The notes below the pieces were generated by a model. The model saw only the letters and a list, made by a program, of their open reading frames with translations. It ran no database searches and was not told where the DNA came from. The translations under genes and the position numbers were made by a program. From Acidobacteriota bacterium (lineage in GTDB: Bacteria > Acidobacteriota > Terriglobia > Terriglobales > Acidobacteriaceae), in assembly GCA_021806005.1 (NCBI GenBank), contig JAJZDM010000014.1, positions 1 to 49,001 on the forward strand: DNA of 49,001 nt, written 5' to 3'. Shown piece by piece: positions 17,106-38,735 of this stretch. How positions within the stretch are numbered: the first letter of the stretch is position 1; each line of letters begins with the position of its first letter.

Positions 17106-17458
17106 GCCACTACCCTAAATCCCATGCGGTGAACCGCCAAGCCAGAATCTTGCCGTGATCCGGCACGATGGTTCAAGTTTGCTACCGGTGCGCGGGGTGA
17201 CTGGCCGCTTGAGGGCGGTCCCTTGGGGAGCGTTCCAACAGGAGGCTTGTCGTGGGGCGGACAGGTGCCCAAAGGTGAAGATGTCGGAGCCGCGGTGACA
17301 TCCGAAGGGTGCGGGACGGGTGGGAGGGAGAGGCGTGAGGTGGCGCATCGGGTGGCGGGCGCTACGGGCCCAAGGGATACGGCTGATGTGGCAAAATTGC
17401 CACACCAGCCTGTCCATGTTTCGATGTAGCCTAAAGTACATCGCATTCGGAGCCGTCT
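17106..17458. other. Divergent intergenic region between the M20 peptidase and lpxC
   Basis: 353 bp with no supported gene; the frames across it on either strand lack domains. It carries the promoter region for lpxC and an 18-bp palindrome (next entry). Confidence 0.6.
17387..17404. promoter_or_regulatory. 18-bp palindrome upstream of lpxC
   Basis: TGTGGCAAAATTGCCACA has perfect 8-bp arms (TGTGGCAA/TTGCCACA) around two bases and ends 54 bp before the proposed lpxC start. It contains a TTGCCA that could be a -35 element. An operator is plausible, but the binder is unknown. Confidence 0.45.
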
Positions 17459-18427
17459 CTGTCCCGTCATCCTCAATTCGAACAGACGATCGAACAACCG
17501 GTTGATTTTCAAGGGGTTGGATTACACTCCGGGGCGGCGGTGGCGATGCGGTTGATTCCGGCACCGGCTGGGTCCGGGGTGGTGTTCCGCCGGACCGACC
17601 TGGACAGCTTTGAGATTCCGGCGACGGGCCGGAACGTTGCCCGAGTCTCATACGCCACCTCGCTGATGCGCCAGGGGGTGCTGATCCAGACCACCGAGCA
17701 CCTGCTGTCAGCACTGATCGGCCTGGGCGTGGACAACCTGATCGTGGAGATTGACAACCTCGAGGTTCCCATCCTGGACGGCAGCTCGCTGCCGTATGTC
17801 TCGTCCATCCAGGCCGCCGGCCTGAGGCGGCAGCGGCGCAAGCGTGAGTATCTGCGGATCCTGAAGCCGGTTGAGGTGCGGGAGTGCTCGGCGGCCGGCG
17901 AGAAGTTTATCGGGGTTTATCCCGGAGACGGTTATGCGATTCATTACGCGATCGACTTTCCGGAGCCCATCGGGCGGGACACGTTCATCGGCGATCTTGA
18001 GGCGGGCGCTTATGCCGACCTGATTGCGCCGGCACGCACCTTCGGCTTCAAGGAAGATGAGGCGATGCTGCGCGACATGGGCCTGATTCGGGGCGTCTCG
18101 GACGACTCCGCCATTATTGTGACCCGGACCACGCCCAGCCGGCCGGGCGCGGTGCTGAACGGCCCGCTGCGCTTCCCGGATGAGTTTGTCCGGCATAAGG
18201 TGCTGGACCTGATCGGCGATCTGGCGCTGGCTGGCCGGCGCATCTGGGGACGCGTTGTAGCCGAGCGCGCCGGCCACGCCATGCACACCGCGCTGGTCCA
18301 GAAGCTGCTCCGCGACCGGTCAGCGTGGGAGCTGGCCCACCGCTATGAGAGCGAGAAGGGTCTGGAACCGGAGCTTGCAGAGCACGCAGAGAGCGTCGCG
18401 GCCAAGCTCGAGATGCAACACGTCTAG
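17459..18427 (+). CDS. lpxC: UDP-3-O-acyl-N-acetylglucosamine deacetylase LpxC
   Basis: LpxC performs the committed step of lipid A synthesis. Counting from CTG at 17459 the protein has 322 residues, and zinc/catalytic residues fall where expected: H81 (TTEHLLSAL), H246 and D250 (FVRHKVLDLIGD), H273 (RAGHAMHTAL); E. coli has H79, H238, D242 and H265. The conserved N-terminus FEQTIEQPVDFQGVGLHSG is encoded upstream of the first ordinary start codon (GTG 17540). Between the preceding in-frame TAA (17432) and 17540 there is no ATG, GTG or TTG, only this CTG, and GGAG lies 6 nt before it. So a CTG start is the best reading. FolK follows after 1 nt. Confidence 0.9.
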   Translation: MSRHPQFEQTIEQPVDFQGVGLHSGAAVAMRLIPAPAGSGVVFRRTDLDSFEIPATGRNVARVSYATSLMRQGVLIQTTEHLLSALIGLGVDNLIVEIDNLEVPILDGSSLPYVSSIQAAGLRRQRRKREYLRILKPVEVRECSAAGEKFIGVYPGDGYAIHYAIDFPEPIGRDTFIGDLEAGAYADLIAPARTFGFKEDEAMLRDMGLIRGVSDDSAIIVTRTTPSRPGAVLNGPLRFPDEFVRHKVLDLIGDLALAGRRIWGRVVAERAGHAMHTALVQKLLRDRSAWELAHRYESEKGLEPELAEHAESVAAKLEMQHV

Positions 18428-24815: not shown

Positions 24816-26273
24816 CTATCTTTTTTTGTTGTTGGGAGGAGCCATCGACTCTGAGCCTGGAGGTGCTGAAAGGGCGGCCTGATGGGTGGCGCGGGCGAAG
24901 GCGCGGTAGCGCGAGAACATGTTATGGGTGCCCGCGATACCGTAGATGGCCGTGATGGCGATCAGAAAAACAGTTGCGGTTGGGAGACGGGGCTGGATTC
25001 GCTCCTGGTAGTAACGGATCACGCACGGTAGCGCGACGATAAGCAGAACGAGCATGTAGCGGTCATAGAGTCCGTTTACTTGAGCAGCCCGCGAGGTCAG
25101 TAACAGCAAGTAGGCGACGGTGAGGGGTGCGAGGAGCATACCCAGCGTCCCCCACCCGGGAGACTGGGGGGCGTCTGTTCCCGGGGATCTCCTGGGAGGG
25201 TAAAGAAGGGAGGTAGCGAGACCGAGCAGCCCTGCGAGCGAGAGGATGGTCAGCACAGCCCGCGCACCCGCAGGGAGAAAGATGGGGGCTGCCATGTAGC
25301 CGCCGCCATACCCGCCATACTTCGTGAGCCAATCTCCCATGAACGGCTCCAGCAGCGGGTGCATCTCGGCGTGTTTCCAGTGGAGAGCGAGCAGGATCAG
25401 GATGGAGACCACAAAGGCCGTCGAGGCGACCTGGATGGAGCGCCGGGTGTTCCGGCGCAGCTCGGTGATGAAGAGGAGCGTGACGGGCAGAAGAAGAAAG
25501 GGAAGCTCCAGAAGTGCGTGGAAGAAGGATGAGAGGATGTTGAATTCGCTGCCTGGTGCGATGCTGAGGCTCTCGGGCAGGGTGTAGGGCTGATGCTGGA
25601 ACCACCGGTTGCAGGCGAAGACGAAGAGGGCACTGGCAGCGGTAGCCGCGGCGCCGGCGAGAAAGACGCGACGGCGGCTGCGGAGCAGCCATAGCGTCGC
25701 GGGGAGCATGACCAGGAGACCCAGCCAAGCGAACTGCCGGGCCGTGCCCAGCACGGCGTTGCTTGCGGCGGCGAAGTAGAGCCAGGAGATGGTAGCGCGG
25801 TCGGTCGAGGCCTGCAGGGCGCGCAGGCAACTGTAGAAGCAGAGCACAAGGGCGAAGAGACCGAAGACGTCACTCATATAGGTGACGGCGAGCATGAGGT
25901 AGAGCGGCGAAAGGACGTAGGCCAGCGTACCAAGGGTGGCGTTGCGCTCGTTGATGCCTGCGCGGACCAGCGTGCGCTGGAGGAGGAAGGCTGTGAGCAG
26001 GGCGTTGAACAGCGTACCCATGCGGACGACGGTGAAGGAGAAGCCGAAGAGCTTGATGAAGACCGCGCCCAGGTAGAGCTGCCAGCCCAGCATCGACCCC
26101 GGCCAGCTTGTGTAGACGATGTGGCCGGTATTGGAGAGATGTTGCGCCATCAGGATGTAAGGACCATCATCGCAGATGCCCACGTTAGCGTAGGGGCGGC
26201 TGATGAGTTCACAGAGGAGAACGGCCAGGGCGCAGAAGAGTGCTGGAAGATGGAGCTTGCGGGCGAGTTGCAA
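24816..26273 (-). CDS. DDGPY-type polytopic membrane protein, short paralog
   Basis: A 485-residue member of the five-copy family also found at 31154-38735. The N-terminus has RPYANVGICDDGPYILMAQH (acidic pair D35-D36 in the first external loop), then MLGWQLYLGAVFIKLFGFSF, TLVRAGINERNATLGTLA and YMSDVFGLFAL, all shared with the others. It stops soon after the last helix and lacks the roughly 110-residue C-terminal domain that the other four carry, ending instead in a Ser/Pro/Lys-rich tail. A GT-C-type glycosyltransferase role is inferred. The start is TTG with GGAG 8 nt before it. Confidence 0.7.
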   Translation of the reverse strand: MQLARKLHLPALFCALAVLLCELISRPYANVGICDDGPYILMAQHLSNTGHIVYTSWPGSMLGWQLYLGAVFIKLFGFSFTVVRMGTLFNALLTAFLLQRTLVRAGINERNATLGTLAYVLSPLYLMLAVTYMSDVFGLFALVLCFYSCLRALQASTDRATISWLYFAAASNAVLGTARQFAWLGLLVMLPATLWLLRSRRRVFLAGAAATAASALFVFACNRWFQHQPYTLPESLSIAPGSEFNILSSFFHALLELPFLLLPVTLLFITELRRNTRRSIQVASTAFVVSILILLALHWKHAEMHPLLEPFMGDWLTKYGGYGGGYMAAPIFLPAGARAVLTILSLAGLLGLATSLLYPPRRSPGTDAPQSPGWGTLGMLLAPLTVAYLLLLTSRAAQVNGLYDRYMLVLLIVALPCVIRYYQERIQPRLPTATVFLIAITAIYGIAGTHNMFSRYRAFARATHQAALSAPPGSESMAPPNNKKR

Positions 26274-26426
26274 GGTGTCTCCAAAGACGGTTGCCGGGAC
26301 CGGCGCCCGGAGCCAGATCCGGGCAGCGTTCCTCTAGGTGAGAGTGCCTTCAGGGTAGCAGAGTGCGGAACCGGGGAAGATGCTCTCGCTCCGGCAGGTG
26401 TGATCGGCTGATCCAAGGGCCCACGC

Positions 26427-26432
26427 TATACT
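26427..26432 (+). promoter_or_regulatory. Candidate -10 box for the ubiA-like operon
   Basis: TATACT about 44 bp before the ATG at 26477, inside the divergent region that starts the plus-strand glycan genes. No clear -35. Confidence 0.35.
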
Positions 26433-26476
26433 TTCCATCAGTAGCCAGGCATAAAGTCCCCGGGAGCACCCTGCCG

Positions 26477-27610
26477 ATGTCTCAGAGCGAGCGCACCAGC
26501 GTACCGGTTGGAGAGCGGCTTCGCGCCCACCTCGCCATCGCCCGGCTGGATCACTCGATCAAGAACCTCTTCGTTCTGCCCGGCGTGATCGTCCCTTTGA
26601 GCGTCGACCCAGCGCTATTCAACGTCGGCCTGGTTCGCAAGCTGGTTCTGGCCCTGGTCTCCATCACGCTGGTGGCCTGCAGCAACTACGTGATCAACGA
26701 GGTGCTGGACGCTCCCTTCGACCGCCTGCATCCGATCAAGAAGAACCGTCCGGCGGCGCGCGGCCTGGTGAGCACGCCGCTGGCCTACGTTCAATGGCTC
26801 GTGATGATGGCCGGGGGCATGGTGATTGCCGTTACGCTCTCCAAGCTCTTTGCGCTGGCCGCGCTGACGCTGTGGATCATGGGTTGCCTGTACAACTTTC
26901 CACCGATCCGGACCAAGGATGTTTCCTACCTGGACGTGCTGACCGAGTCGATCAACAACCCGCTGCGCATGCTGCTGGGCTGGTACGCGGTGACCAGTGT
27001 GCTGATCCCGCCGGTCTCGCTGCTGGTGGCCTACTGGATGATCGGCTGCTACTTCATGGCGCTGAAGCGGTTCAGCGAGCTGCGCGAGCTGCAGCAGGAG
27101 GGCGACCATGGCGTGGCCGGGGCCTATCGCGCGTCGTTCCGGCGCTATACGCCGGAGTCCCTGCTGGTTTCCGTGGTCTTCTACGCCTCCACGGCGATGC
27201 TGTTTCTGGGCGCCTTCATCATCCGCTACCGGATTGAGCTGATCCTGAGCTTTCCCCTGGTGGCGCTGACGATGGCCATCTACCTGAGACTCGCCTTCCA
27301 GCCGGAGAGCGCCGTGCAGAACCCGGAGAAGCTGTATCGCGAGCCGCTGCTGATGGCCTCGTTTTCTGCGACGGTGCTGGTGATGGGCATCCTGCTCTTC
27401 CTGCGCATCCCGCGTCTGGAGCAGTTTTTCCTGCCGACTCTGCCGACGACGACCTCGTCGTCGCAGGGCACCTTCCCAGCAACTGGCCTGAGCCCGGCGC
27501 AGGAGCGGCCTGTCGTTCTGGCGCGGCGAGACGGTGCGGTGCGGGGCCGGACGGAAGGGACGGGGATGGAAGCAGCGGAGACTGAGGTTACCGGGGCGGA
27601 GCCTGCATGA
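26477..27610 (+). CDS. UbiA-family prenyltransferase, decaprenyl-phosphate phosphoribosyltransferase-like
   Basis: A 377-residue membrane enzyme with about nine helices. ARLDHSIKNLFVLPGVIVP at the start, the metal-binding N74-E75-X2-D78-X3-D82 motif (NEVLDAPFDRLHP), KKNRPAARG and the second motif region YNFPPIRTKDVSYLDVLTES match the UbiA branch that includes mycobacterial UbiA (Rv3806c), which makes decaprenylphosphoryl-5-phosphoribose, the precursor of lipid-linked arabinose. Assignment to that reaction is by similarity and context. The last 50 residues are a hydrophilic Thr/Ser/Glu-rich tail with no known role. The stop overlaps the next ATG by 4 bp (ATGA). Confidence 0.8.
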   Translation: MSQSERTSVPVGERLRAHLAIARLDHSIKNLFVLPGVIVPLSVDPALFNVGLVRKLVLALVSITLVACSNYVINEVLDAPFDRLHPIKKNRPAARGLVSTPLAYVQWLVMMAGGMVIAVTLSKLFALAALTLWIMGCLYNFPPIRTKDVSYLDVLTESINNPLRMLLGWYAVTSVLIPPVSLLVAYWMIGCYFMALKRFSELRELQQEGDHGVAGAYRASFRRYTPESLLVSVVFYASTAMLFLGAFIIRYRIELILSFPLVALTMAIYLRLAFQPESAVQNPEKLYREPLLMASFSATVLVMGILLFLRIPRLEQFFLPTLPTTTSSSQGTFPATGLSPAQERPVVLARRDGAVRGRTEGTGMEAAETEVTGAEPA

Positions 27611-29310
27611 GGCCATCGATCTCTCCGACGGCTGCTGGCTCCCGTGTGGCACATGACTCCCGGGAGACCGCTGGCTCCTGGCCTCTGCCGGCGTTCTTTC
27701 TGCTGCTCAGCGCCACGCTCTCACTGCTGTGGTCGCAGGGCCGGCTGATGTGGAACGACGAGTTCCTCTCCTTCTACTCGGACAGCGTGGCCAGCCTCCG
27801 GCAGGTGGTGCTGGTGCAGCTCCACTACCCCATCTCGCTGGACCCTCCGACGTACCATCTGCTCTCTCACCTGTGCATGGACGTGCTGGGGCGGAACGCG
27901 CTGGCGCTGCGGCTGCCTGCGCTGGCCGGATTCCTGCTCTTCCAGATCTGTGTCTTCTTGTTTGTTCGCCGCCTGGCAGGGGAGCGCGCGGCGATTGTGG
28001 CCATGGCCGCGCCGATATGCACCGCCAGCTTCCGCTACTCGCTGGAGGGCCGGCCCTATGGGCTGCTGCTGGGGCTGTACGCTCTGTCGCTGGTCTGCTG
28101 GCAGGCTGCGATCCGAGGGGCGCCGGGGGCGGCAGAGGCCGCAAACCAGCCCGGTTCGACCGCGAACCACCCCGCCGGCTCGCGTGTGCTTGCCCTGGCC
28201 GGCCTGACGCTCTCCATCGCCCTTGCCATCACCAGCCACTACTTCGGGGTTCTGATTCTGATCCCGGTGAGCCTGGGCGAGCTCTGGCGCAGCGTGATCC
28301 GGCGGCGGCTGGACGGTGGCGTGCTCGCGGCGCTGGGGCTGGGGCTGGCTTCGGTTGGCCTGATCCTGCCCTTCCGTCCTGCGCTGATGGTTTACCGCAG
28401 GCACTACTACATTACGGGCGTGAATCTGCATGACATCAGCCAGGGCTATCGCGAGCTGTTTGTGCGCTACACCACCTGGCCGATGGCGATGCAGCGGATG
28501 ACTGCAGCCCTGCTGGTGATCCTGGCGCTGGCGCTAGCCGGGGCGGGCTGGAGACGATTCCAGAGACGCGCTGAGGGTGAGTCGGCTGCGGTCTGGGTGG
28601 GACTGGCCTCCATGGCGCTGCTGCCCTTCTTCGGGTATCTCTTTGGCCGCTTCGTGACCCACACCATGGAGGTGCGGTACGTGATTGCGGCGCTGATCGC
28701 CTTTGCCGCCACCTTCGGCATCGTGCTGGAGCGCAGGCTGCGCAGCAACGCGTTCTACTATGCGGTGCTGGGGGTGATCACTGCGGCTGGCGTGGCCATC
28801 AACGGACAGAACATTCTGCGCGAGCGGGCTGCGTCCGCCGCTATGCTGGGTAGTCTGCAGCCGTCTCCGGCGCTGGCGGCCGCGCTGGCGGCGCATCCCT
28901 ACGCTCCGCTGTATGAGCAGAGCCTGGGCAACTTCTTTGTCGACTCCTACTACACGCCTGACTCCGAGCTACGCAGGCGCATCACCCTGCTCTACAACCC
29001 GGAGCAGGAGGTCCGCTGGCTGCAACATGATACGTACTCGATTGCAGCGCGCAATCTGCAGCAGTTCACCCGGCTGCCGGTGGTGAACTACGATGAGATC
29101 ACACGACAGCCCGGAGAGCATCTGCTGATCCAGTGGAAGGATGGCTGGAACTGGACCGCGCAGGCCATGGCCGCTGAAGGTGCAGACCTGACACCGCTGG
29201 GGGCAGGTTTTGGTGGCGAGGCGATCTCCGTTGCGTGGCCGCAGAGTGCAGTGCGAGCGTTACTTCCTTCGGCGCAGTCGTTGGAAGCGGGTAGCGGCAG
29301 AGCGAGGTAG
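27607..29310 (+). CDS. GT39/PMT-like polytopic glycosyltransferase (GT-C fold), copy 2
   Basis: A 567-residue membrane protein, paralog of the gene at 23077. WNDEFLSFYSDSV (D51-E52) and YPISLDPPTYHLLSHL give the GT-C acidic loop; about ten helices follow. The C-terminal soluble part has SIAARNLQQFTRLPVVNYDE, then HLLIQWKDGWNWTAQAM, matching the other copy (HLSLTAANMR, DWTGQAL). It starts inside the stop of the ubiA-like gene, so the two are translated together, which supports use of the lipid-linked sugar made by that enzyme. That functional link is inference. Confidence 0.78.
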   Translation: MRPSISPTAAGSRVAHDSRETAGSWPLPAFFLLLSATLSLLWSQGRLMWNDEFLSFYSDSVASLRQVVLVQLHYPISLDPPTYHLLSHLCMDVLGRNALALRLPALAGFLLFQICVFLFVRRLAGERAAIVAMAAPICTASFRYSLEGRPYGLLLGLYALSLVCWQAAIRGAPGAAEAANQPGSTANHPAGSRVLALAGLTLSIALAITSHYFGVLILIPVSLGELWRSVIRRRLDGGVLAALGLGLASVGLILPFRPALMVYRRHYYITGVNLHDISQGYRELFVRYTTWPMAMQRMTAALLVILALALAGAGWRRFQRRAEGESAAVWVGLASMALLPFFGYLFGRFVTHTMEVRYVIAALIAFAATFGIVLERRLRSNAFYYAVLGVITAAGVAINGQNILRERAASAAMLGSLQPSPALAAALAAHPYAPLYEQSLGNFFVDSYYTPDSELRRRITLLYNPEQEVRWLQHDTYSIAARNLQQFTRLPVVNYDEITRQPGEHLLIQWKDGWNWTAQAMAAEGADLTPLGAGFGGEAISVAWPQSAVRALLPSAQSLEAGSGRAR

Positions 29311-29370
29311 GCAGAAGAGGCAGCGGGTGAGGCCAGCAAGAGGCAGGGAGTTCAAGTCCAAGAGGAAGCG

Positions 29371-31116
29371 ATGGAGAGAGCCGACCAACAGGGAGCCAGG
29401 GAGGGTGACGGACGGCGCAGGCTGGTCGATCTGGGTGCGGCTCTGTTGCTGGCGCAGGCCGCGGCTACGTCGATCGAGCGGTTGATGGCCGCGCGCCGCG
29501 ACAAGCTGGGCTTCGACGACGCCTACATGTTCCTGCGCTACGCGCACAACATCCGCCACGGCCTGGGCTTCTCCTGGAATCCGAACGGCGTACACACCTA
29601 CGGCCCCACGTCACTGCTGTGGAGCTTCTGCGTGCTGTTGCTGAGCTACCTGCCGACCGATCCCTGGACGCAACTGCTGCTGGGCTCCTGGGTGTGTTCG
29701 CTGGCGGCCGTGATCGCCATGGCCTGGGCCGTAAGGGCCAACGCCCGGAGCGAGTGGCTGCGCAGGCCGCTGCCCACGCTGGCGCTGATCGCTGCGCCGC
29801 TCTTCGCCTCTACGCTCTTCCAGGGCGACCAGTTCAACGGCATGGAGACGATGCTGGCGACGGCGCTGTGCGCGGTCTTCTTCGGGCTGTGCCTGCTGTG
29901 GCGTGCGGGACGGGTAGCACCGGTGGTGGTGGGCGGAGCTGGTTTCCTGCTTTTTCTGGCTCGGCCGGAGTCCGGGCTGGCGACCATGCTGCTGCCTGCG
30001 CTGGTGGGGCGGATGCCCGGAAACCTATCTGGCCTTGAGGAGCCCGACGGCCGGGCGCGGCCGTCTCTGCGGGAGTTTCTGGAGATCTATGGCGTCTTTT
30101 GCGCCGGGGTGCTGGTCGAGCTAGCGCTGTGCCGGCTGTACTTTGGAACGCCGGTTCCGCTGAGCGTACACATGAAGGGTGGCGCGGCTTACCGGGGCTA
30201 CGGCGACGTCTGGTATCCCAGCCTGATGCTGATCGCCTTCCTGAGCGCGCTGCAACTCTTTGTGGCAGCGCTGGTGCTGCTGACGCGGCGGCGCGATCTG
30301 CGCCTGGTTCTGTGCGGAGTGATTCCTGCGGCGCTGGTCTTTGCGTACCTGGGAACCGTGACCCAGATCATGGGCTTTGACAGCCGCTACTATGTGCCCT
30401 ACGCGCCGCTGCTGGTGGTTCCTGCGGTTCTGGTTCTGGATGGCTGGCTGGCCTTCCCCCAGCCGTGGAACGAGGCGTGGCCGGGACACGCGCTGCGCAA
30501 TCGCGGCGCGGTGACTGCAGTGCTGCTGATCCTGTTCTTCCTGTTCCACTCGCAAGCGGTACAACGCGGATTTCGCCTGCTCGAGCACGGCCACCACCTG
30601 GAGTACGATCCTGCGCAGCTCAGCGTTGCGGCGACAACTCCGCTGCCGAGCTACGATTGGCAACCCATGATGCGGGCAGTGACCGACGACCTGATTGCGC
30701 CGCTCCCTCGGGGTACAACCGTTGCCTCCAGTGAGGTGGGCTATCTGGGCGAGCGCGCCTCCGGCATCAACATCATAGACCTGGCCGGGCTCAACGACAA
30801 CGACATCGCACTGCACGGCTTCGGGATGAACCGCTTGCTGGAGCGCAAGCCGGACCTGATCTGGATGCCGAATACGAGCTACACTTACCAGCGCGGCGTG
30901 ATGTTCAGCGATCCGGCGTTCCTCGCCCAGTATGATGTCTACGCCGATGCCGGCAACTTCGGCATCGCCATTCGCAAGGACTCGCCCTACTGCGGCGCGA
31001 TCGAGCGCCAGTTCAGGATCTTCTGGGCCAGGGTCTACCCACGGTACGATCCGGCGGCGTACCTGGTGCGGTCCGTGAGCTGGAGCGGCGTCCCGCACAG
31101 CGTACGCAACCGCTGA
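29371..31116 (+). CDS. AftB-like polytopic glycosyltransferase
   Basis: A 581-residue membrane protein. LGFDDAYMFLRYAHNIRHGL (D49-D50) and SWNPNGVHTYGPTSLLW form the first external loop, resembling mycobacterial AftB and related GT-C arabinofuranosyltransferases (DDAF, GxGxxWNPG, TSPL). About nine to ten helices follow. The C-terminal domain has ASSEVGYLGERASGINIIDL, AGLNDNDIALHG and IWMPNTSYTY, found in this transferase group. It is the third gene of the plus-strand set, 60 bp after the previous stop, with AGAGGAAG before the ATG. A role adding a furanose sugar is plausible but unproven. Confidence 0.72.
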   Translation: MERADQQGAREGDGRRRLVDLGAALLLAQAAATSIERLMAARRDKLGFDDAYMFLRYAHNIRHGLGFSWNPNGVHTYGPTSLLWSFCVLLLSYLPTDPWTQLLLGSWVCSLAAVIAMAWAVRANARSEWLRRPLPTLALIAAPLFASTLFQGDQFNGMETMLATALCAVFFGLCLLWRAGRVAPVVVGGAGFLLFLARPESGLATMLLPALVGRMPGNLSGLEEPDGRARPSLREFLEIYGVFCAGVLVELALCRLYFGTPVPLSVHMKGGAAYRGYGDVWYPSLMLIAFLSALQLFVAALVLLTRRRDLRLVLCGVIPAALVFAYLGTVTQIMGFDSRYYVPYAPLLVVPAVLVLDGWLAFPQPWNEAWPGHALRNRGAVTAVLLILFFLFHSQAVQRGFRLLEHGHHLEYDPAQLSVAATTPLPSYDWQPMMRAVTDDLIAPLPRGTTVASSEVGYLGERASGINIIDLAGLNDNDIALHGFGMNRLLERKPDLIWMPNTSYTYQRGVMFSDPAFLAQYDVYADAGNFGIAIRKDSPYCGAIERQFRIFWARVYPRYDPAAYLVRSVSWSGVPHSVRNR

Positions 31117-31153
31117 GGAGCGTGGGGGGGCGAGCCCAGGCGTCTGGCAGGTT

Positions 31154-33055
31154 CTAAGGCATGCCGTGCGGGAGCTGACTGGGCGGCACATAGCGGACTA
31201 CGTAGAGGGTGCCGGGAGTGCGGTAAGGCCAGCGTGAGTAATGCACCGGCGCAAAGGGCGCTGAGCCGTAGCAGATGTTGGGGTTGAAGGAGACGCTGTA
31301 GAGGGGGCGGACGTGCGGCAGGGCGGAGTAGAGCGCCACGAGACAGGTAGGGGCCGGAACGGAGACGTAGGTGTGGGCCGGTCGAATGATCCGTGAATCG
31401 TTGAGATGGCTGGCGTGCCGCAGCTCCGTACCGAGGTTGTAGGGCCAGCCGTAATCGACGGCGGTGTCCGGAATGCCTGCAGCGCGTACTTCGGCGGAGA
31501 GCCTGTCGATGGCGCGGTAGAGGGTGAAGCCGTTATGCGTCACTGTCGCCGAGAAAGCCGCCACGATGGTGATGAGAACCCAAGCTACCGACGGCAGTCG
31601 AGGCCGGATGTAGTCCTGATACAGGCGAAGCGTGGCGAGCAGAGCGAAGGGGGCGAGCAGGAAAAGATAACGGTCCTTGGCGATCCGCAGCAGCACCACC
31701 AGGAAAAGATCGTAGGCAGCCATGAGCGGCCCAATCAGCACCAGGAGCTGCCTGCCGGTGAGGGCTGCGGACGGAGTTATCTCAGGCGATCCTGAGCTGG
31801 ACGGATCCAAAACGGCGAACGACGAATACCTGCGCATGCTGCTGAGCAGCATCGAGGCCAGCAAAGCCACCAGACCGCCCATACAAAAAAGGCTCACGGC
31901 TACCTGGAGTGCCGTGCCGAGGAAGGCGCCAGGAGTGCTGTTCATAATGGGCGACCATAGGCCGTTGATCGGGAACCAGTCTCCCCAGTCAGGGGCTGCC
32001 GGCAACAGCAGAAGCAGGTTGTGCGAATGGGTGGGGTGGCGGCCGATGAGCCAGCAGGCAAGGGATTTCGGATGAGGGAAGGCCAGAAAGAGTCCCAGGC
32101 AAAGAATTGCCAGGACCAGCGGGCCGGCCTTTCGCGTCCTCGGGCTCGCGCAAATCGCCGGTATCCGGGGAAGGAAGAGGAGCGTGATGGGCAGCAGGAA
32201 GAAGGAGACGTCCAGCAAGCTGTAGGCGAACCGAACCAGAATGTAGTTGAGAGAGATCGTGGCGAGCGGCGGCAGATTGTCGGGGATCGTGAAGGGCTGG
32301 CCCTTCAGCCACTGCATGCAGGCAAAGATGAAGACGTCGGCAGCGAGACAGGCGCTGATGCCCACCGTGAGGACGCGGCGGCGCGAGCGCTGTGGCAGAA
32401 GACCATGCAGCAGAAACAGTGTGCAAGGGACGATGATGAGAGTGCCCATCCAGGCGAACTGACGCGCCGTGCCCAGGATGGCGTTGCTGATGGCAGCGAG
32501 GCATAGCCACAGGATTACGGCTGGCTCATCGGCAGGATGGGCAGAGCCGTCGTCCGTGAGCTCAACGGGCCGGGCGCCGATGGATTTTGCGGCCTCCAGA
32601 GCACGCAGACAGCCGTAGAGGCAGAGGATGATGGCAAACATCCCGAAGAGATCGCTCATATAGCTGGCTGTGAGAACCAGATAGAGCGGGGAGAGCACCA
32701 GGGCCAGCGTGCCAAGCATGGAGTTGCGTTCGTTGATGCCCGCGCGAACCAGTGTGCGCTGAAGCAGGAAGGCCAGGAGCATGGACACCAGGAGGGTGCT
32801 CATGCGAACGGTGGTGAAGGAGAAGCCGAAGAGTTTGATGAAGGCCGCGCCCAGGTAGAGCTGCCAGCCCAGCATCGGAATGGCCCAGCCGTTATAGACG
32901 ACGTGGCCGGTGTTAGCCAGGGTGTGGGCCATCAGGATGTAGGGCCCATCGTCCCATACGCCGGTGTTGGTGAAGGGTCGGCTGAGGATCGCACAGAGAA
33001 GCACCGCGAGCGCGCAGAACAGGGCTGGAATGCGCAACCTTCGGATGAGTTGCAA
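31154..33055 (-). CDS. DDGPY-type polytopic membrane protein A1
   Basis: A 633-residue member of the five-copy family, subtype A. It carries NTGVWDDGPYILMAHTLA (D35-D36), the shared MLGWQLYLGAAFIKLFGFSF block, and a subtype A insertion near residues 155-180 (SIGARPVELTDDGSAHPADE) also present in the 34991 copy. The C-terminal domain includes PDTAVDYGWPYNL and ends FAPVHYSRWPYRTPGTLYVV. GT-C glycosyltransferase function is inferred from topology, acidic loop and neighbours. TTG start with GGAGG 4 nt before it. It is last in the minus-strand tandem array. Confidence 0.72.
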   Translation of the reverse strand: MQLIRRLRIPALFCALAVLLCAILSRPFTNTGVWDDGPYILMAHTLANTGHVVYNGWAIPMLGWQLYLGAAFIKLFGFSFTTVRMSTLLVSMLLAFLLQRTLVRAGINERNSMLGTLALVLSPLYLVLTASYMSDLFGMFAIILCLYGCLRALEAAKSIGARPVELTDDGSAHPADEPAVILWLCLAAISNAILGTARQFAWMGTLIIVPCTLFLLHGLLPQRSRRRVLTVGISACLAADVFIFACMQWLKGQPFTIPDNLPPLATISLNYILVRFAYSLLDVSFFLLPITLLFLPRIPAICASPRTRKAGPLVLAILCLGLFLAFPHPKSLACWLIGRHPTHSHNLLLLLPAAPDWGDWFPINGLWSPIMNSTPGAFLGTALQVAVSLFCMGGLVALLASMLLSSMRRYSSFAVLDPSSSGSPEITPSAALTGRQLLVLIGPLMAAYDLFLVVLLRIAKDRYLFLLAPFALLATLRLYQDYIRPRLPSVAWVLITIVAAFSATVTHNGFTLYRAIDRLSAEVRAAGIPDTAVDYGWPYNLGTELRHASHLNDSRIIRPAHTYVSVPAPTCLVALYSALPHVRPLYSVSFNPNICYGSAPFAPVHYSRWPYRTPGTLYVVRYVPPSQLPHGMP

Positions 33056-33158
33056 AGGGCCTCCGACGAGGTTTGTGGATCGTGGCCCGTGATACTCAGC
33101 AAGGGTCGAGCGCGTTGGATGGTGGGAGAGGATTTCAGAGTAGCAGAGTGGGAGTCAG
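33056..33158 (-). repeat. 103-bp B-A junction, copy 1
   Basis: The spacer between genes B1 and A1. It is the same length as, and clearly similar along its whole extent to, 36875-36977 (shared runs include AAAGGGCCTCCGA, GAGGTTTGTGG and TTCAGAGTAGCAGAGTGGG on the plus strand). It contains the Shine-Dalgarno of A1. Confidence 0.75.
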
Positions 33159-34880
33159 TCACGCCTTGGGCGGCAGATAGCGGACTACGTATAGAGTCCC
33201 GCGGGTGCGGTAGGGCCAGCGGGAGTAGTGGACAGGGGCGAAGGGAGCGGGACCGTAGCAGGCGTTGGGGTCGAAGGAGACGCCGTAGAGGGGAATGATG
33301 TGGGGGGTGACATCATGGAAGAACATGGGGCAGGTGCCGGCAGGCAGCGGAGGCTGGGGCACATACGCATGCGCGGGAATCACAATCGCAGGCCAATTGA
33401 TGTAATCAGCGTGTTGGAGCTCGACAGCGATGTTGTATTCCCAGCCGTTATCGACAGAGGTGTCCGGTACGCCGGCGGCGCGGAGTTCAGCGGCGAGCCT
33501 GACGCGCGCGCGATAGAAGGAGTAGGTGTTGTGGGTGCAGGCGATCCCGTAGATCGCCAGCAGTCCGGTGAGGAAGAGAACAGAGCCGGGCAACTTCGGC
33601 TGAAGGCAGTCCTGGTAGTACCGGACCACGCAGACGGCGGCGACGAGCGCCAACTCCAGAAGGTAGCGGTCGACGAGCAAGCTCTGACCCGCACGTGGAA
33701 TCAGGATCAAGGAGTAGACCACCGAGAAAGGGACCAGGATTACTCCCAGATGCGCCCAAGAGACGGTGCGAGGGGCCCCCTCCGGAAGTGGCTTCCCGCC
33801 TGTCCGGAGCATCGAGGCAGCCAGCCCGATCAGGCCGCTCGCCACGGTTGCGGTCAGCAGCAGACGCACCCAGTGGTTCAGGAGGAAGACAGGCGGTGTG
33901 CCCTTCAGAATGGCGTTGACATTGATCCCCGAGACGTTAATCACATCGCCCAACGTTGGCTCCAGTAAAGGATGTAAGGTGATGTGCTTCCAACGGAGCA
34001 CCAGCAAGATCAAAAGATAGGCAAGAGAAAGAACGGAGAGTACCGCAGCGGAGCGGCGGAGGCTCTTGCGGATCTCCGGGAGAAAAGGAACCAAGATCGG
34101 GAGCAGGAGGAGCAAGACCTCCGGAAATGCGTGGAAGAGCGTGGCGAGGACAGGATACTCCTGGCCCCGGTGCACGACAAGGTGTTCGGGATTGATGTAA
34201 GGCTGCCGCGCCATCCAACGCATACAGGCAAAGACGAAGACATATCCGGCGAGGGTGGCCACAGCACCCTCGATAAGGACGCGCCGCCGCTCCCGCAACA
34301 GCCAGAGAGTGGAGGGAACCATGACGAGAACGCCGAGCCAAACGATCTGGCGGGCCGTGCCACAGATATCATTGCCGGCGACAGCGAAGCAGATCCAAGC
34401 GACGCAGGCTCGGTCAGTGGAGGCTTCCAAGGCGCGCAAGCAGCCATAGAGGCAGAGCACGACGGCGAAGAGCCCGAAGATGTCGCTCGTGTAACAGACG
34501 GAGAGCGTCAGGTATAGCGGCGAGAGGACGAAGGCCAGCGTGCCGAAGACAGCATTACGCTCGGAGATACCGGCACGCACCATCACTCGCTGGAGGAGGA
34601 AGGCCAGCGTCATAGCGACCAACCACGTGCTCATGCGGACGGTGGTGATTGAGAAGCCAAAGAGCTTGATGAAGGCTGCTCCGAGATAGAGCTGCCAGCC
34701 CAGCATGGGGGCTTCCCATCCGTTGTAGAGAATTTTGCCGGTGGTCGCGAGCCGGAGTGCGGACCGGATATAGGTCCACTCCCCACCCATATCGGCGTAG
34801 GGACGGCTGATGAGCGCGCAGATGAGCACGGCCAGGGCGCCAGACAGGGCTGGAACGCGGAACCTACGGACGAGTGGCAA
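33159..34880 (-). CDS. DDGPY-family paralog B1, acidic motif lost
   Basis: A 573-residue subtype B member. Helices, MLGWQLYLGAAFIKLFGFSI, CYTSDIFGLFAVVLCLYGCL and the full C-terminal domain (IIPLYGVSFDPNACYGPAPF, then APVHYSRWPYRTRGTLYVV) are all intact. But where the relatives have GVCDDGPYILMA it reads MGGEWTYIRSAL: the Asp pair is gone and the segment is two residues shorter. If the pair is catalytic, B1 is inactive or altered. I use the TTG at 34880, which matches the TTG and GGAGGCCCT context of the other copies; a TTG at 34925 would add 15 residues. Confidence 0.72.
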   Translation of the reverse strand: MPLVRRFRVPALSGALAVLICALISRPYADMGGEWTYIRSALRLATTGKILYNGWEAPMLGWQLYLGAAFIKLFGFSITTVRMSTWLVAMTLAFLLQRVMVRAGISERNAVFGTLAFVLSPLYLTLSVCYTSDIFGLFAVVLCLYGCLRALEASTDRACVAWICFAVAGNDICGTARQIVWLGVLVMVPSTLWLLRERRRVLIEGAVATLAGYVFVFACMRWMARQPYINPEHLVVHRGQEYPVLATLFHAFPEVLLLLLPILVPFLPEIRKSLRRSAAVLSVLSLAYLLILLVLRWKHITLHPLLEPTLGDVINVSGINVNAILKGTPPVFLLNHWVRLLLTATVASGLIGLAASMLRTGGKPLPEGAPRTVSWAHLGVILVPFSVVYSLILIPRAGQSLLVDRYLLELALVAAVCVVRYYQDCLQPKLPGSVLFLTGLLAIYGIACTHNTYSFYRARVRLAAELRAAGVPDTSVDNGWEYNIAVELQHADYINWPAIVIPAHAYVPQPPLPAGTCPMFFHDVTPHIIPLYGVSFDPNACYGPAPFAPVHYSRWPYRTRGTLYVVRYLPPKA

Positions 34881-34990
34881 AGGGCCTCCGGGAAGATTGT
34901 CGGTTGCGCCCGTGGAACTTTGCAAGGGGCCGGGCGTGGTACTTCGAGAACAGGGTGGATTCAGATTAACAAAGGTGCCGTTGCAGACTA

Positions 34991-36874
34991 TCAGTTCGCC
35001 ACAGGCGTGTACCGCACGACGTACAGGGTTCCGAGCGAAGTGGCCAGCCAGCGGGGGTAACGGACCGGGGCGAAGGGGGCCTGCCCGTAGCAGAGGTCAG
35101 ACCGAAAGGAGACACCATAGAGGGGACGAATGTGCGGAACGTCGAAGTAGAAAGTCATGGGACATAAAGGGGCTGGCACTGAAACGTGGGAATCTGCGGG
35201 GGTGAGGATTCTGGGGTCGTTGATGTGGTTGGAGTGTTGCAATTCCACGTCGAGGTTCTGCGGCCAGCCGTAATCGACGGCGGTGTCGGGGATGCCCGCA
35301 GCGCGCATCTCGGCTGCGAGCTGGCCGATGGCGCGGTAGAGAGCGAAGCTGTTGTGCGTCACCGCCGTCGCAAACATGGCTAGGAGCGCGAGCAACACCC
35401 AGGCTGCGGACGGCAGGTGGGGCCGGATTTTGTCCTGGTAGAGCCGAATCAGCAGGAGCAAAACCAGGGGCGCCAGCAGAAGCAGGTAGCGGTCGAGGAC
35501 CATCTGCATTACGGCGACCAGAAAGAGAGAGTAGGCAGCCATTGCCGGCCCGACCACGACCAGGAGCTGCCTGCTGCTCAGGCTCACGGAGAGAGCGGGA
35601 CTGGGCGAGGTTACATTTGGCCGGGTCAAGGCCGAAGACCTAGCCTGGCCCCGCAGGCTGCCGAAGAGAAGGGAGACGGCTATGGCGATCAGTCCACCAG
35701 CCGAGGCCCACGTCAGCAGCATCTGGAGACCTCTGCCGAAGGAAGCGGGCGGGGTGCTGTTCAAGATGGGTGACCATACGCCGTAGGATGTGAACCAATA
35801 TCCCCAATCCAGATTGGCCGGGAGGAGCAGAAGGAGCCCGTGAGGATGCGCGGGGTGGCGACCCGTCAGACGATAGGCCAGCGACCGTGGATGAGGGCAC
35901 ACCAGGATGTATCCCGAACAAAGGATCGCCAGGGCCAGCGAGCCGGCCCAGCGAGTCTTCGGATTCGCGCAAATCTCCAATATCTGCGGAAGGAAGAGGA
36001 GGGTGATGGGGAGCAGGAGGAGAGAAACGTCCAGCGCGACGTCGATGAGACGAACGAGATCGTAAGCGAAGGGGATGGATGTGGACCGCAACACCGGTTG
36101 CTGAACCGTGTAGGGTTGGCGCTTCAGCCACTGCATGCAGGCGAAGACGAAAAGGGCGCCGGCCAGACAGGCCGTTGCGCCCACCGAAAGGACGCGGCGG
36201 CGCGAGCGCCACGGCAGAAGACCATGCAGCAGCAACAGCGTGCAGGGGATCATGACGAGGATGCCCAGCCAGGCGAACTGGCGCGCTGTGCCCAGAATGG
36301 CGTTGCTGACGGAGGCGGAGCACAGCCACAGGATCACGGCGCGCTCGCCGCCAGGATTGGCGGAGCCGTCGTCCGAAAGCCCAGCGGGTCGGTCGCCAAG
36401 TGACTGCGCAGCCTGCAGAGCGCGCAGGCAGCAGTATAGGCAGACGACGATGGCAAAGATTCCAAAGAGGTCGCTCATATAGGTGACCGAGAGAATCAGA
36501 TACAGCGGAGAGAGAACGAGGGCCAGCGTGCCGAGGGTGGCATTGCGCTCATTGATGCCCCCGCGGACCAGCGTGCGCTCAAGGAGGAAGGCCAGGAGCA
36601 TGGACACCAGCAGGGTGCTCATCCGGGCGGCGGTGAAGGAGAAGCCGAAGAGCTTGATAAATGCTGCGCCCAGGTAGAGCTGCCAACCCAACATCGGAGC
36701 CGCCCAGCCGTTGTATACCACGTGGCCGGTCTTTTCCAGATGTTGCGCCATCAGGATGTAGGGTCCGTCGTCCAGCACGCCCATGTTGGTGAAGGGGCGG
36801 CTGAGAAGTGCGCAAAACAGGACGCAGAGAGCACAACAGAGGGCCGGAATGCGGAACCTTCGGATGAGTTGCAA
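34991..36874 (-). CDS. DDGPY-type polytopic membrane protein A2
   Basis: A 627-residue subtype A member, very close to A1: NMGVLDDGPYILMAQHLE, INERNATLGTLALVLSPLYL, and the A-type insertion SLGDRPAGLSDDGSANPGGE. The C-terminal domain has PDTAVDYGWPQNLDVELQHS and ends with FAPVRYPRWLATSLGTLYVV, more diverged than in A1, B1 and B2. Start TTG with GGAGG upstream, as in A1. It lies between B2 (upstream in transcription) and B1. Confidence 0.72.
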   Translation of the reverse strand: MQLIRRFRIPALCCALCVLFCALLSRPFTNMGVLDDGPYILMAQHLEKTGHVVYNGWAAPMLGWQLYLGAAFIKLFGFSFTAARMSTLLVSMLLAFLLERTLVRGGINERNATLGTLALVLSPLYLILSVTYMSDLFGIFAIVVCLYCCLRALQAAQSLGDRPAGLSDDGSANPGGERAVILWLCSASVSNAILGTARQFAWLGILVMIPCTLLLLHGLLPWRSRRRVLSVGATACLAGALFVFACMQWLKRQPYTVQQPVLRSTSIPFAYDLVRLIDVALDVSLLLLPITLLFLPQILEICANPKTRWAGSLALAILCSGYILVCPHPRSLAYRLTGRHPAHPHGLLLLLPANLDWGYWFTSYGVWSPILNSTPPASFGRGLQMLLTWASAGGLIAIAVSLLFGSLRGQARSSALTRPNVTSPSPALSVSLSSRQLLVVVGPAMAAYSLFLVAVMQMVLDRYLLLLAPLVLLLLIRLYQDKIRPHLPSAAWVLLALLAMFATAVTHNSFALYRAIGQLAAEMRAAGIPDTAVDYGWPQNLDVELQHSNHINDPRILTPADSHVSVPAPLCPMTFYFDVPHIRPLYGVSFRSDLCYGQAPFAPVRYPRWLATSLGTLYVVRYTPVAN

Positions 36875-36977
36875 AGGGCCTCCGAGGAGGTTTGTGGTTC
36901 ATGGCCCGTCAGACTCAGCGAGGTCGAGCGCGTTTTGGCGGCAGGGGCGGACTTCAGAGTAGCAGAGTGGGCGTCTG
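36875..36977 (-). repeat. 103-bp B-A junction, copy 2
   Basis: The spacer between genes B2 and A2, equal in length and similar in sequence to 33056-33158. Together they mark a duplicated B-A unit. Confidence 0.75.
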
Positions 36978-38735
36978 CTACGCCTTGGGCGGTAGATAGC
37001 GGACGGCGTAGAGGGTTCCGGGGGTGCTGTAGGGCCAGCGGGAGTAGTGCACCGGAGCGAAGGGAGCGGGGCCGTAACAGGCGTTGGGGTCAAAGGAGGC
37101 GCCGTAGAGGGGGCGAACGTGGGGGGTCTGGTCGTAGTTGACGACCTTGCACGAGCCTGCAGGGAGCGGAGGGGCTGGCTTGTAGGCGTCAGCGGGTATG
37201 GTAGTGCGCGGATCGTTGATGTGATTGGAGTGCTGCAGCTCGACAACCATGTTCTGCTCCCAGCCATGGTCGATAGCGGTGGGGGCGACCCCGGCTGCGA
37301 CCAACTCGTTGGCCAGGGCGACACGGGCGCGATAGAGAGAGAACATGTTGTGGGTCATCATGACGGCGTAGAGGGCGACCGCGGCCACCAGCGGGATGGA
37401 GACCAAGGGCAAGCGCTGCTGGATTTGGTCCTGGTAGGAACGCAGAAGACAGAGCAAGATGACAACCAGCAATCCCAGGAAGTAGCGATCGCGGATGCCG
37501 GAGACGACCGACCGGGGAATGAGCAGGAGGTAGTAGGTGAGGAAGAATGGTGCGAGGAGCATGCTGAGCTGCCGCCAGGACACCTCACGCGATACGACAC
37601 CGGACTCAGCGGTGGCGGGCTCCGGTGCGGGCTTGGTCCCCCCCGTCTGCCGCAGCGAGGCGATGAGCCCGACGACCCCTCCGAGGGTTAGAAGGGTGAG
37701 CAAAACCTGTGCGACTTTGCCGATGACGATGGGCGGCTTGCCTTGCAGCAGGTCATAGGCAAAGATCCCGGTGACGTTGTTCCATTCGCCAAGGCCGGTT
37801 CCCGAACCCATGGGCAGGAGTTGAACGTTGCCGCGAAGATGGCTGGGATAGGTGGCCAGAAACACGTAACCACTGAAGAGCAGGAGGAAGATGGCCAGCG
37901 TGCGGAGACGGAGCTTGCGTAGCTGAGGGAGGAACAGCAGCGTGACCGGGAGCAGGAGATAGGGGAGATCCAGAACGGAGTAGGCGATCTGCAGCAGCGC
38001 CGTGGCAACGGAAAATGTCTTCGGAAGCAGGTGCTCGTGGACGTTGTAGGGCTGGCGGAGGAACCATTGCATGCAGGCGAGGATGAAGAGGCCGCCAAGG
38101 AGGTTGACCGCGAGGCCCGCGAGCAGAACGCGGCGGCGGGAGCGAAGCAGATACAACGCGGAGGGAATCATGACCAGCACGCCGAGCCAAGCGATCTGGC
38201 GGGAGGTTCCGAAGAGGGCGTTGGTAAAGACAGCGAAGCAGAGCCAGAGGATGGTTGCGCGATCGCTGGCGGACTGTAGAGAGCGGAGGCAGCCGTAGAG
38301 GCAGAGAAGGATGCTGAAGAGGCCGAAGACGTCACTCATGTACGTAGCGGAGAGCATGAGGTAGATCGGCGACAGGACCAGGGCCAGCGTGCCGAGGGTG
38401 GCGTTGCGCTCGTGGATCCCGGCACGAACCAGGGTGCGCTGGAGGAGGAAGGCCGTAAGTAAGGCGACCAGCAGCGTGCTCATGCGAGCGACGGTGAAGG
38501 AGAAGCCGAAGAGCTTGATGAAGGCCGCACCCAGATAGAGCTGCCAGCCGAGCATAGGGGTGATGTTGCCGTTGTAGAGGATGTGGCCGGTCGCTGCCAG
38601 CTTCTGCGCCATCAGGATGTAGGGGCCGTCGTCGCAGACGCCCATGCTGGTATAGGGGCGGCTGATGAGCTCGCAGAGGAGAACCGCGAGAGAGCAGAGG
38701 ACGGCAGGGAGGCGAAGACGACGGGCGAGTTGCAA
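36978..38735 (-). CDS. DDGPY-type polytopic membrane protein B2
   Basis: A 585-residue subtype B member and the first gene of the tandem array. SMGVCDDGPYILMAQKLA keeps the acidic pair (D35-D36). Shared blocks follow (MLGWQLYLGAAFIKLFGFSF, IHERNATLGTLALVLSPIYL, TYMSDVFGLFSILLC). The middle has LLQGKPPIVIGKVAQVLL, matching LKGTPPVFLLNHWVRLLL of B1. The C-terminal domain contains GVAPTAIDHGWEQNMVVELQ and VRPLYGASFDPNACYGPAPF. Start TTG with GGAGG 4 nt before it. Likely a GT-C transferase acting outside the inner membrane; substrate unknown. Confidence 0.73.
   Translation of the reverse strand: MQLARRLRLPAVLCSLAVLLCELISRPYTSMGVCDDGPYILMAQKLAATGHILYNGNITPMLGWQLYLGAAFIKLFGFSFTVARMSTLLVALLTAFLLQRTLVRAGIHERNATLGTLALVLSPIYLMLSATYMSDVFGLFSILLCLYGCLRSLQSASDRATILWLCFAVFTNALFGTSRQIAWLGVLVMIPSALYLLRSRRRVLLAGLAVNLLGGLFILACMQWFLRQPYNVHEHLLPKTFSVATALLQIAYSVLDLPYLLLPVTLLFLPQLRKLRLRTLAIFLLLFSGYVFLATYPSHLRGNVQLLPMGSGTGLGEWNNVTGIFAYDLLQGKPPIVIGKVAQVLLTLLTLGGVVGLIASLRQTGGTKPAPEPATAESGVVSREVSWRQLSMLLAPFFLTYYLLLIPRSVVSGIRDRYFLGLLVVILLCLLRSYQDQIQQRLPLVSIPLVAAVALYAVMMTHNMFSLYRARVALANELVAAGVAPTAIDHGWEQNMVVELQHSNHINDPRTTIPADAYKPAPPLPAGSCKVVNYDQTPHVRPLYGASFDPNACYGPAPFAPVHYSRWPYSTPGTLYAVRYLPPKA

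Follow-up and report, generated by a model that had tools for sequence, protein, structure and literature searches.

The lpxC gene of the acidobacterial genus Granulicella very probably begins at a CTG codon, and we judge it somewhat probable, at roughly 0.6, that the codon has been retained in order to throttle the translation of LpxC. This enzyme carries out the first committed, controlling step of lipid A synthesis. To our knowledge, its control outside the Proteobacteria has been little studied. In Escherichia coli, as far as the available part of that literature goes, LpxC is controlled by FtsH together with LapB and LapC, through proteolysis. CUG is among the rarest of annotated start codons, accounting for 20 ORFs (0.024%) in 69 bacterial genomes in the accessible portion of one survey (PMC9845219). 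An earlier note had proposed the CTG start of lpxC from a single genome; the proposal is supported genus-wide by the comparisons described here, and the CTG of the genus is, on the sequences compared, part of a family-wide avoidance of ATG at this gene.

The lpxC Locus and Its Probable Initiation Codon

The window, a stretch of 49,001 nucleotides from an Acidobacteriota bacterium (contig JAJZDM010000014.1), carries on its plus strand the gene for UDP-3-O-acyl-N-acetylglucosamine deacetylase, lpxC, at 17459–18427 when read from the putative CTG start (17459–17461), which gives 322 codons and a stop, TAG at 18425–18427. The frame is closed upstream by an in-frame TAA at 17432–17434, 27 codons before the conserved GVGLHSG motif (17513–17533). 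The CTG is the sole NTG codon between that stop and the motif, stands in a column that is conserved among relatives, and follows a Shine-Dalgarno-like GGAG (17449–17452) at a distance of 6 nt. The first ATG, GTG or TTG of the frame is a GTG at 17540–17542, nine codons past the first codon of GVGLHSG; the frame that it opens (17540–18427) encodes 295 amino acids and would yield a truncated protein. The earlier note had held that the motif is encoded ahead of this GTG, that the CTG is the only near-cognate start with a Shine-Dalgarno sequence, and that annotation confined to usual starts drops 27 residues, the HSG motif included. The sequence and the list of open reading frames bear this out: the near-cognate codons ACG at 17483 and ATC at 17486 encode part of a conserved "EQTI" and have no Shine-Dalgarno match before either of them.

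The identity of the protein is well anchored. Its match to PF03331 has an E-value of 1.2e-90 (304.3 bits), and against TIGR00325, a curated equivalog with a cut-off of 187.25, the CTG-started protein scores 261.2 bits with the profile aligned from position 4, versus 231.0 bits, 30 fewer, and profile position 25 for the version started at GTG 17540. Solved LpxC chains align from residue 7–9 of the CTG-started protein; the stretch lost with the GTG start is thus part of the known enzyme, and a protein beginning at 17540 would miss the HSG stretch, which relatives also encode upstream. Further downstream, TTEHLLSAL and VRHKVLDLIGDL of the window align with EHLLSA and HKILDAIGDL of 4fw3, corresponding to the LpxC motifs TEHLLSA and HKxLDxIGD, which we take to be the zinc-site ligands.

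Elsewhere in the window, the minus strand of 24816–38735 encodes five similar long membrane proteins (24816–26273, 31154–33055, 33159–34925, 34991–36874, and 36978–38735) that share a beginning of the form MQL.R.LR.PAL.CALAVL. Judged by eye, they seem to form a family of repeated genes, of glycosyltransferase type.

Conservation of the CTG in Granulicella

Among 28 genomes examined from the genus of the window (Granulicella, code g1), lpxC was found in 25, and in 22 of these the start column, set 18 codons before GxGLHSG, holds CTG. The comparison with related genomes that the earlier note had called for therefore places the same codon at the same aligned position across the genus, and an ATG or GTG at the start codon, likewise looked for, is absent in the window and in the 22 CTG relatives. 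Isolates are among the carriers, for example G. mallensis and G. paludicola; genus genomes were matched by identical start regions to G. mallensis X5P3, G. paludicola DSM 22464, G. sapmiensis, and a peat MAG. The three remaining genomes carry GTG one codon upstream of the column (G008), TTG in the column itself (G016), and TTG four codons upstream of it (G011).

Such uniformity is not a general property of leucine codons in this gene. In 23 downstream columns that are leucine in all 22 genus genes, CTG makes up 226 of 498 codons and no column is entirely CTG, against 22 of 22 in the start column, a contrast that is not to be read as a probability since the genes compared are related. The second residue after the CTG is Ser in nine genus genes, Ala in seven, and Pro in six, accounting for all 22. 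Small residues at this position are expected after methionine removal. Elsewhere in the family, the second residue in CTG genera (n = 19) is Q in nine, I in five, A in three, F in one, and V in one, which is untypical and does not appear to fit the methionine-removal rule.

Start Codons across the Family and Beyond

The N-termini of lpxC were read in 159 genomes from 41 genera of the family, out of 248 genomes with an lpxC match in two draws. The start column was fixed genus by genus at 18 or 14 codons ahead of GxGLHSG, or at 19 for two of the genera, and G144, G130, and G180, whose locus is without the N-terminus, were excluded. The column holds TTG in 90 genomes, CTG in 42, GTG in 13, a codon other than NTG in 14, and ATG in none; the figure of 42 in 159 overstates the CTG share, as the unusual look of their first members led to denser sampling of genera g44, g79, and g61. 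When nearby starts are assigned by hand, the tally becomes TTG 97, CTG 41, GTG 13, ATG 2, ATC 2, and undecided 4. Two family genomes have an ATG in a column other than the start column. CTG prevails in several genera, with 22 of 25 genomes in g1, 9 of 10 in g79, 7 of 8 in g44, and 3 of 4 in g72, besides one ambiguous genome in g61. Outside the family, 24 genomes were drawn, 21 of which have a readable start; assigned by hand, these are ATG in 16, GTG in four, and TTG in one.

In a quick tree of LpxC, in which some rows span about 100 residues, g1, g72, and g79 form separate clades, g44 is scattered, and CTG rows stand beside TTG rows. The fewest CTG changes that this tree accommodates number 12 (155 rows), versus at least 33 in 100 shuffles, which indicates that CTG has been inherited and has changed several times.

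The genus g61 differs in presenting a mixture of TTG, ATG, GTG, and ATC readings. In its genomes G199 and G265 and in contig L046, lpxC has an ATC seven bases after GGAGG; the ATC of this genus (L046, start region before position 1355; also L341 and L176) shares its column with the ATG of G284 (L347). In G199 the frame is also open further upstream and contains a GTG there. ATC in g61 is an apparent second kind of noncanonical lpxC start in the family. Another family genome, G084, contains two full-length lpxC matches that score almost alike, at C30 and C101, perhaps through duplication or contamination.

The Leader

The Shine-Dalgarno sequence of CTG-started lpxC genes is no stronger than that of TTG-started ones: a 4-base match precedes 14 of the 42 CTG genes of the family versus 36 of the 90 TTG genes. 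Further upstream in the window, TGTAGCCT at 17425–17432 on the plus strand conforms to T[AG]TANN[CG]T and resembles a −10 promoter element, with a predicted transcript start near 17439. In the genus, 21 of 25 genomes carry the pattern 33 to 53 bases ahead of the lpxC start, where 0.79 would be expected; in the family, 55 of 142 rows have it before the start, against an expectation of 4.96. Both expectations come from shuffles that preserve base composition only. If this element is a promoter, the leader in the window would measure about 20 nt and hold no other start in the lpxC frame. The form TGTANNCT, found in the window at the same 17425–17432, precedes 43 of 145 family lpxC starts versus 1.4 expected from shuffles and may be the −10 form that the lineage prefers. 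A hairpin at the start region was considered and dropped, the 62 nt from 17439 folding no better than shuffled sequences (z = 1.50; 189 of 200 shuffles matched or exceeded the stability of the native sequence).

Specificity to lpxC and the Initiation Apparatus

A comparison of 400 kb from each of two genus members gave 138 non-overlapping orthologous pairs; the scan is limited to genes that in both genomes lack any usual start upstream. In four pairs, the homology in both genomes begins six or more codons ahead of the first usual start. For lpxC, 19 of 30 residues upstream of the first usual start are identical. The three other candidates were set aside by judgement, two for weak upstream identity (6 of 18 and 2 of 7) and the third (44 of 97 identical) for its resemblance to a shadow frame, leaving lpxC as the one case of upstream coding homology that appears convincing among the 138 pairs. 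Of two smaller scans against the window, each of 18 pairs, one yielded lpxC and a single weak case (3 of 9), the other just lpxC. A usual start is aligned in 112 of the 138 pairs, being ATG in both genomes in 77, and none is aligned in 26.

The gene infC, which encodes IF3, lies outside the 400-kb stretches of the scan. At its 26 loci in the genus (L360–L385), where the apparent start is ATT or ATC, the start column holds ATT in 17 and ATC in eight, and the last has ATC one codon upstream; a usual start occurs within 30 codons upstream at five. Given these infC starts, IF3 discrimination is probably in force in Granulicella, which would thus probably possess at least two essential genes, lpxC and infC, with starts that IF3 should reject. 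An altered initiator tRNA was rejected as a cause of the CTG start, as that of the window's genome has three G-C pairs next to the anticodon loop, as is usual. The corresponding pattern, GGGCTCATAACCC, is present in 22 of 28 genus genomes; a longer pattern that also fixes the next pair is present in one of 28, that pair being T-A in the window's genome. The LapB model PF18073 matched none of the 28 genus genomes, in most of which only 150 candidates were scored, but it also matches 10 of 14 controls including Gram-positives and so lacks the specificity needed to judge whether LapB is encoded.

Alternative Explanations

Any account that denies initiation at CTG must accommodate its recurrence. 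A sequencing or assembly error at 17459, a concern of the earlier note that the fragmentation of the window's assembly (4.16 Mb in 212 contigs) might seem to encourage, is excluded for practical purposes, because 22 of 25 genus genomes, isolates included, carry the same codon in the same place. It is hardly credible that the working LpxC begins at GTG 17540, with the upstream homology a relic; this GTG is indeed the first usual start of the frame, but the protein sequence encoded ahead of it is conserved within the genus and across the class and contributes 30 bits of the LpxC profile score, and the first usual downstream start differs between genomes, from 1 to 14 codons past the beginning of the motif. 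Highly improbable, too, is a start further upstream at ATG, GTG or TTG, whether in frame or via a frameshift, that would make the CTG an internal leucine. Several genus genomes, among them G006, G010, and G026, do have open frames with usual starts further upstream, and in four of the 22 CTG genomes a usual start lies within eight codons. The other 18 have none at that distance, however, and in 11 of the 22, the window included, none is available between the in-frame stop and the CTG. The stops themselves are scattered, the nearest lying 26 and the farthest 273 codons ahead of the motif, so that the stretch upstream of the CTG is not conserved coding sequence, and both the all-CTG column, unlike the leucine columns, and the position of the −10-like element argue against such a start.

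A different objection accepts CTG as the real start but grants it no regulatory purpose: from a family TTG, the codon would have drifted among TTG, CTG, and GTG, any weak start being enough. TTG is the commonest family start and CTG is a single transition away from it, so that drift among weak starts can mimic the observed pattern; the adjacency of CTG and TTG rows in the tree and the mixed readings of g61 likewise accord with it. Against it stand published start-codon switches. In the available part of a genome-wide study, start codons generally evolve towards AUG, with 43 switches from UUG to AUG and one from UUG to CUG in 2,468 (PMC5622118), yet ATG is found in none of the 159 lpxC start columns, a reversal of the trend. 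The CTG is moreover kept in 22 of 25 genus genomes despite variation elsewhere in leucine codons and columns. Set against the published switches, the near absence of ATG at lpxC suggests selection, the two data sets differing in kind; drift we regard as possible but rather unlikely.

CTG as a Proposed Translational Throttle

We return to the preferred reading, that CTG 17459 is the true lpxC start, as is very likely, and that it serves to limit LpxC. At a CUG, the initiator tRNA would be mismatched in the first codon position, and translation would begin with fMet; owing to that mismatch initiation should be weak, and weak initiation would hold LpxC at a low level. The retention of CTG throughout the genus suggests an enzyme meant for small amounts. 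More broadly, the lineage would keep its lpxC start weak on purpose, as TTG, CTG or GTG and almost never ATG, with selection rather than drift as the cause. According to the accessible portion of one study, CUG is used inefficiently in vitro by both the normal and a relaxed initiator tRNA, and a changed anticodon stem of this tRNA lowers discrimination against CUG (PMC11497404). Counting against CTG initiation at lpxC is Caulobacter dnaA, where, in the part of the report available, an upstream CUG with a predicted Shine-Dalgarno sequence bound initiation complexes in vitro and was unused in vivo, an AUG following it (PMC8443254). Since CUG falls outside the ATG/GTG/TTG set that IF3 tolerates, CUG-started lpxC genes are, by analogy, probably sensitive to IF3 and would be repressed by it, as are infC and Streptomyces sigR; that this sensitivity is used as a signal is speculation.

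Conserved noncanonical starts are already known as a kind. The parallel with infC is that of an essential gene whose conserved start is none of ATG, GTG, and TTG, and in which weak initiation would provide dosage control. Whereas infC, with its AUU or AUC start, is autoregulated by IF3, the CUG of lpxC would come under IF3 by analogy, and no self-feedback is expected because LpxC does not act on translation. The available part of the work on Streptomyces sigR (PMC5472188) describes a GTC start that is repressed by IF3 and kept in 32 of 34 members of the genus, and whose replacement by a usual start leads to overproduction; like lpxC, sigR is not a translation factor gene and keeps its noncanonical start across a genus, but it has an extensive, conserved ribosome-binding site and a tested mechanism, in contrast to the mostly weak Shine-Dalgarno matches of lpxC and a mechanism drawn from analogy. 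Non-ATG starts of lacI and other sugar regulators in Enterobacteriaceae (PMC11445065) resemble lpxC in being weak starts at a given gene that extend clade-wide and have arisen more than once; they differ in that the genes are regulators and GTG is prominent, and lpxC and CTG are absent from the main text as far as it was available. E. coli and the Acidobacteriaceae share the same enzyme and the same need to limit its amount, in E. coli by proteolysis, as the accessible sources describe it, and here, we infer, by translation initiation. In the open-licence literature we found no report of an lpxC with a CTG or other non-AUG start, none relevant to the start of Granulicella lpxC, and no conserved noncanonical start of such breadth; the compilation of non-AUG bacterial genes by Gvozdjak and Samanta (2020) may list lpxC.

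Implications

Gene callers limited to ATG, GTG, and TTG would yield an LpxC that lacks its first strand and the HSG motif, and the public LpxC models in such genomes may consequently be wrong. As an essential gene that avoids ATG in nearly every family genome read, lpxC presents a natural experiment on dosage control by a weak start. A bolder reading, which we regard as possible but less likely than not, is that the family fixes its LpxC dose at the level of translation initiation, with ATG barred by selection and TTG, CTG or GTG (ATC in a few) held in its place. Through the CUG start, IF3 could then govern lipid A synthesis, and the production of outer membrane would track the state of the translation apparatus, replacing the proteolytic control of LpxC or acting beside it.
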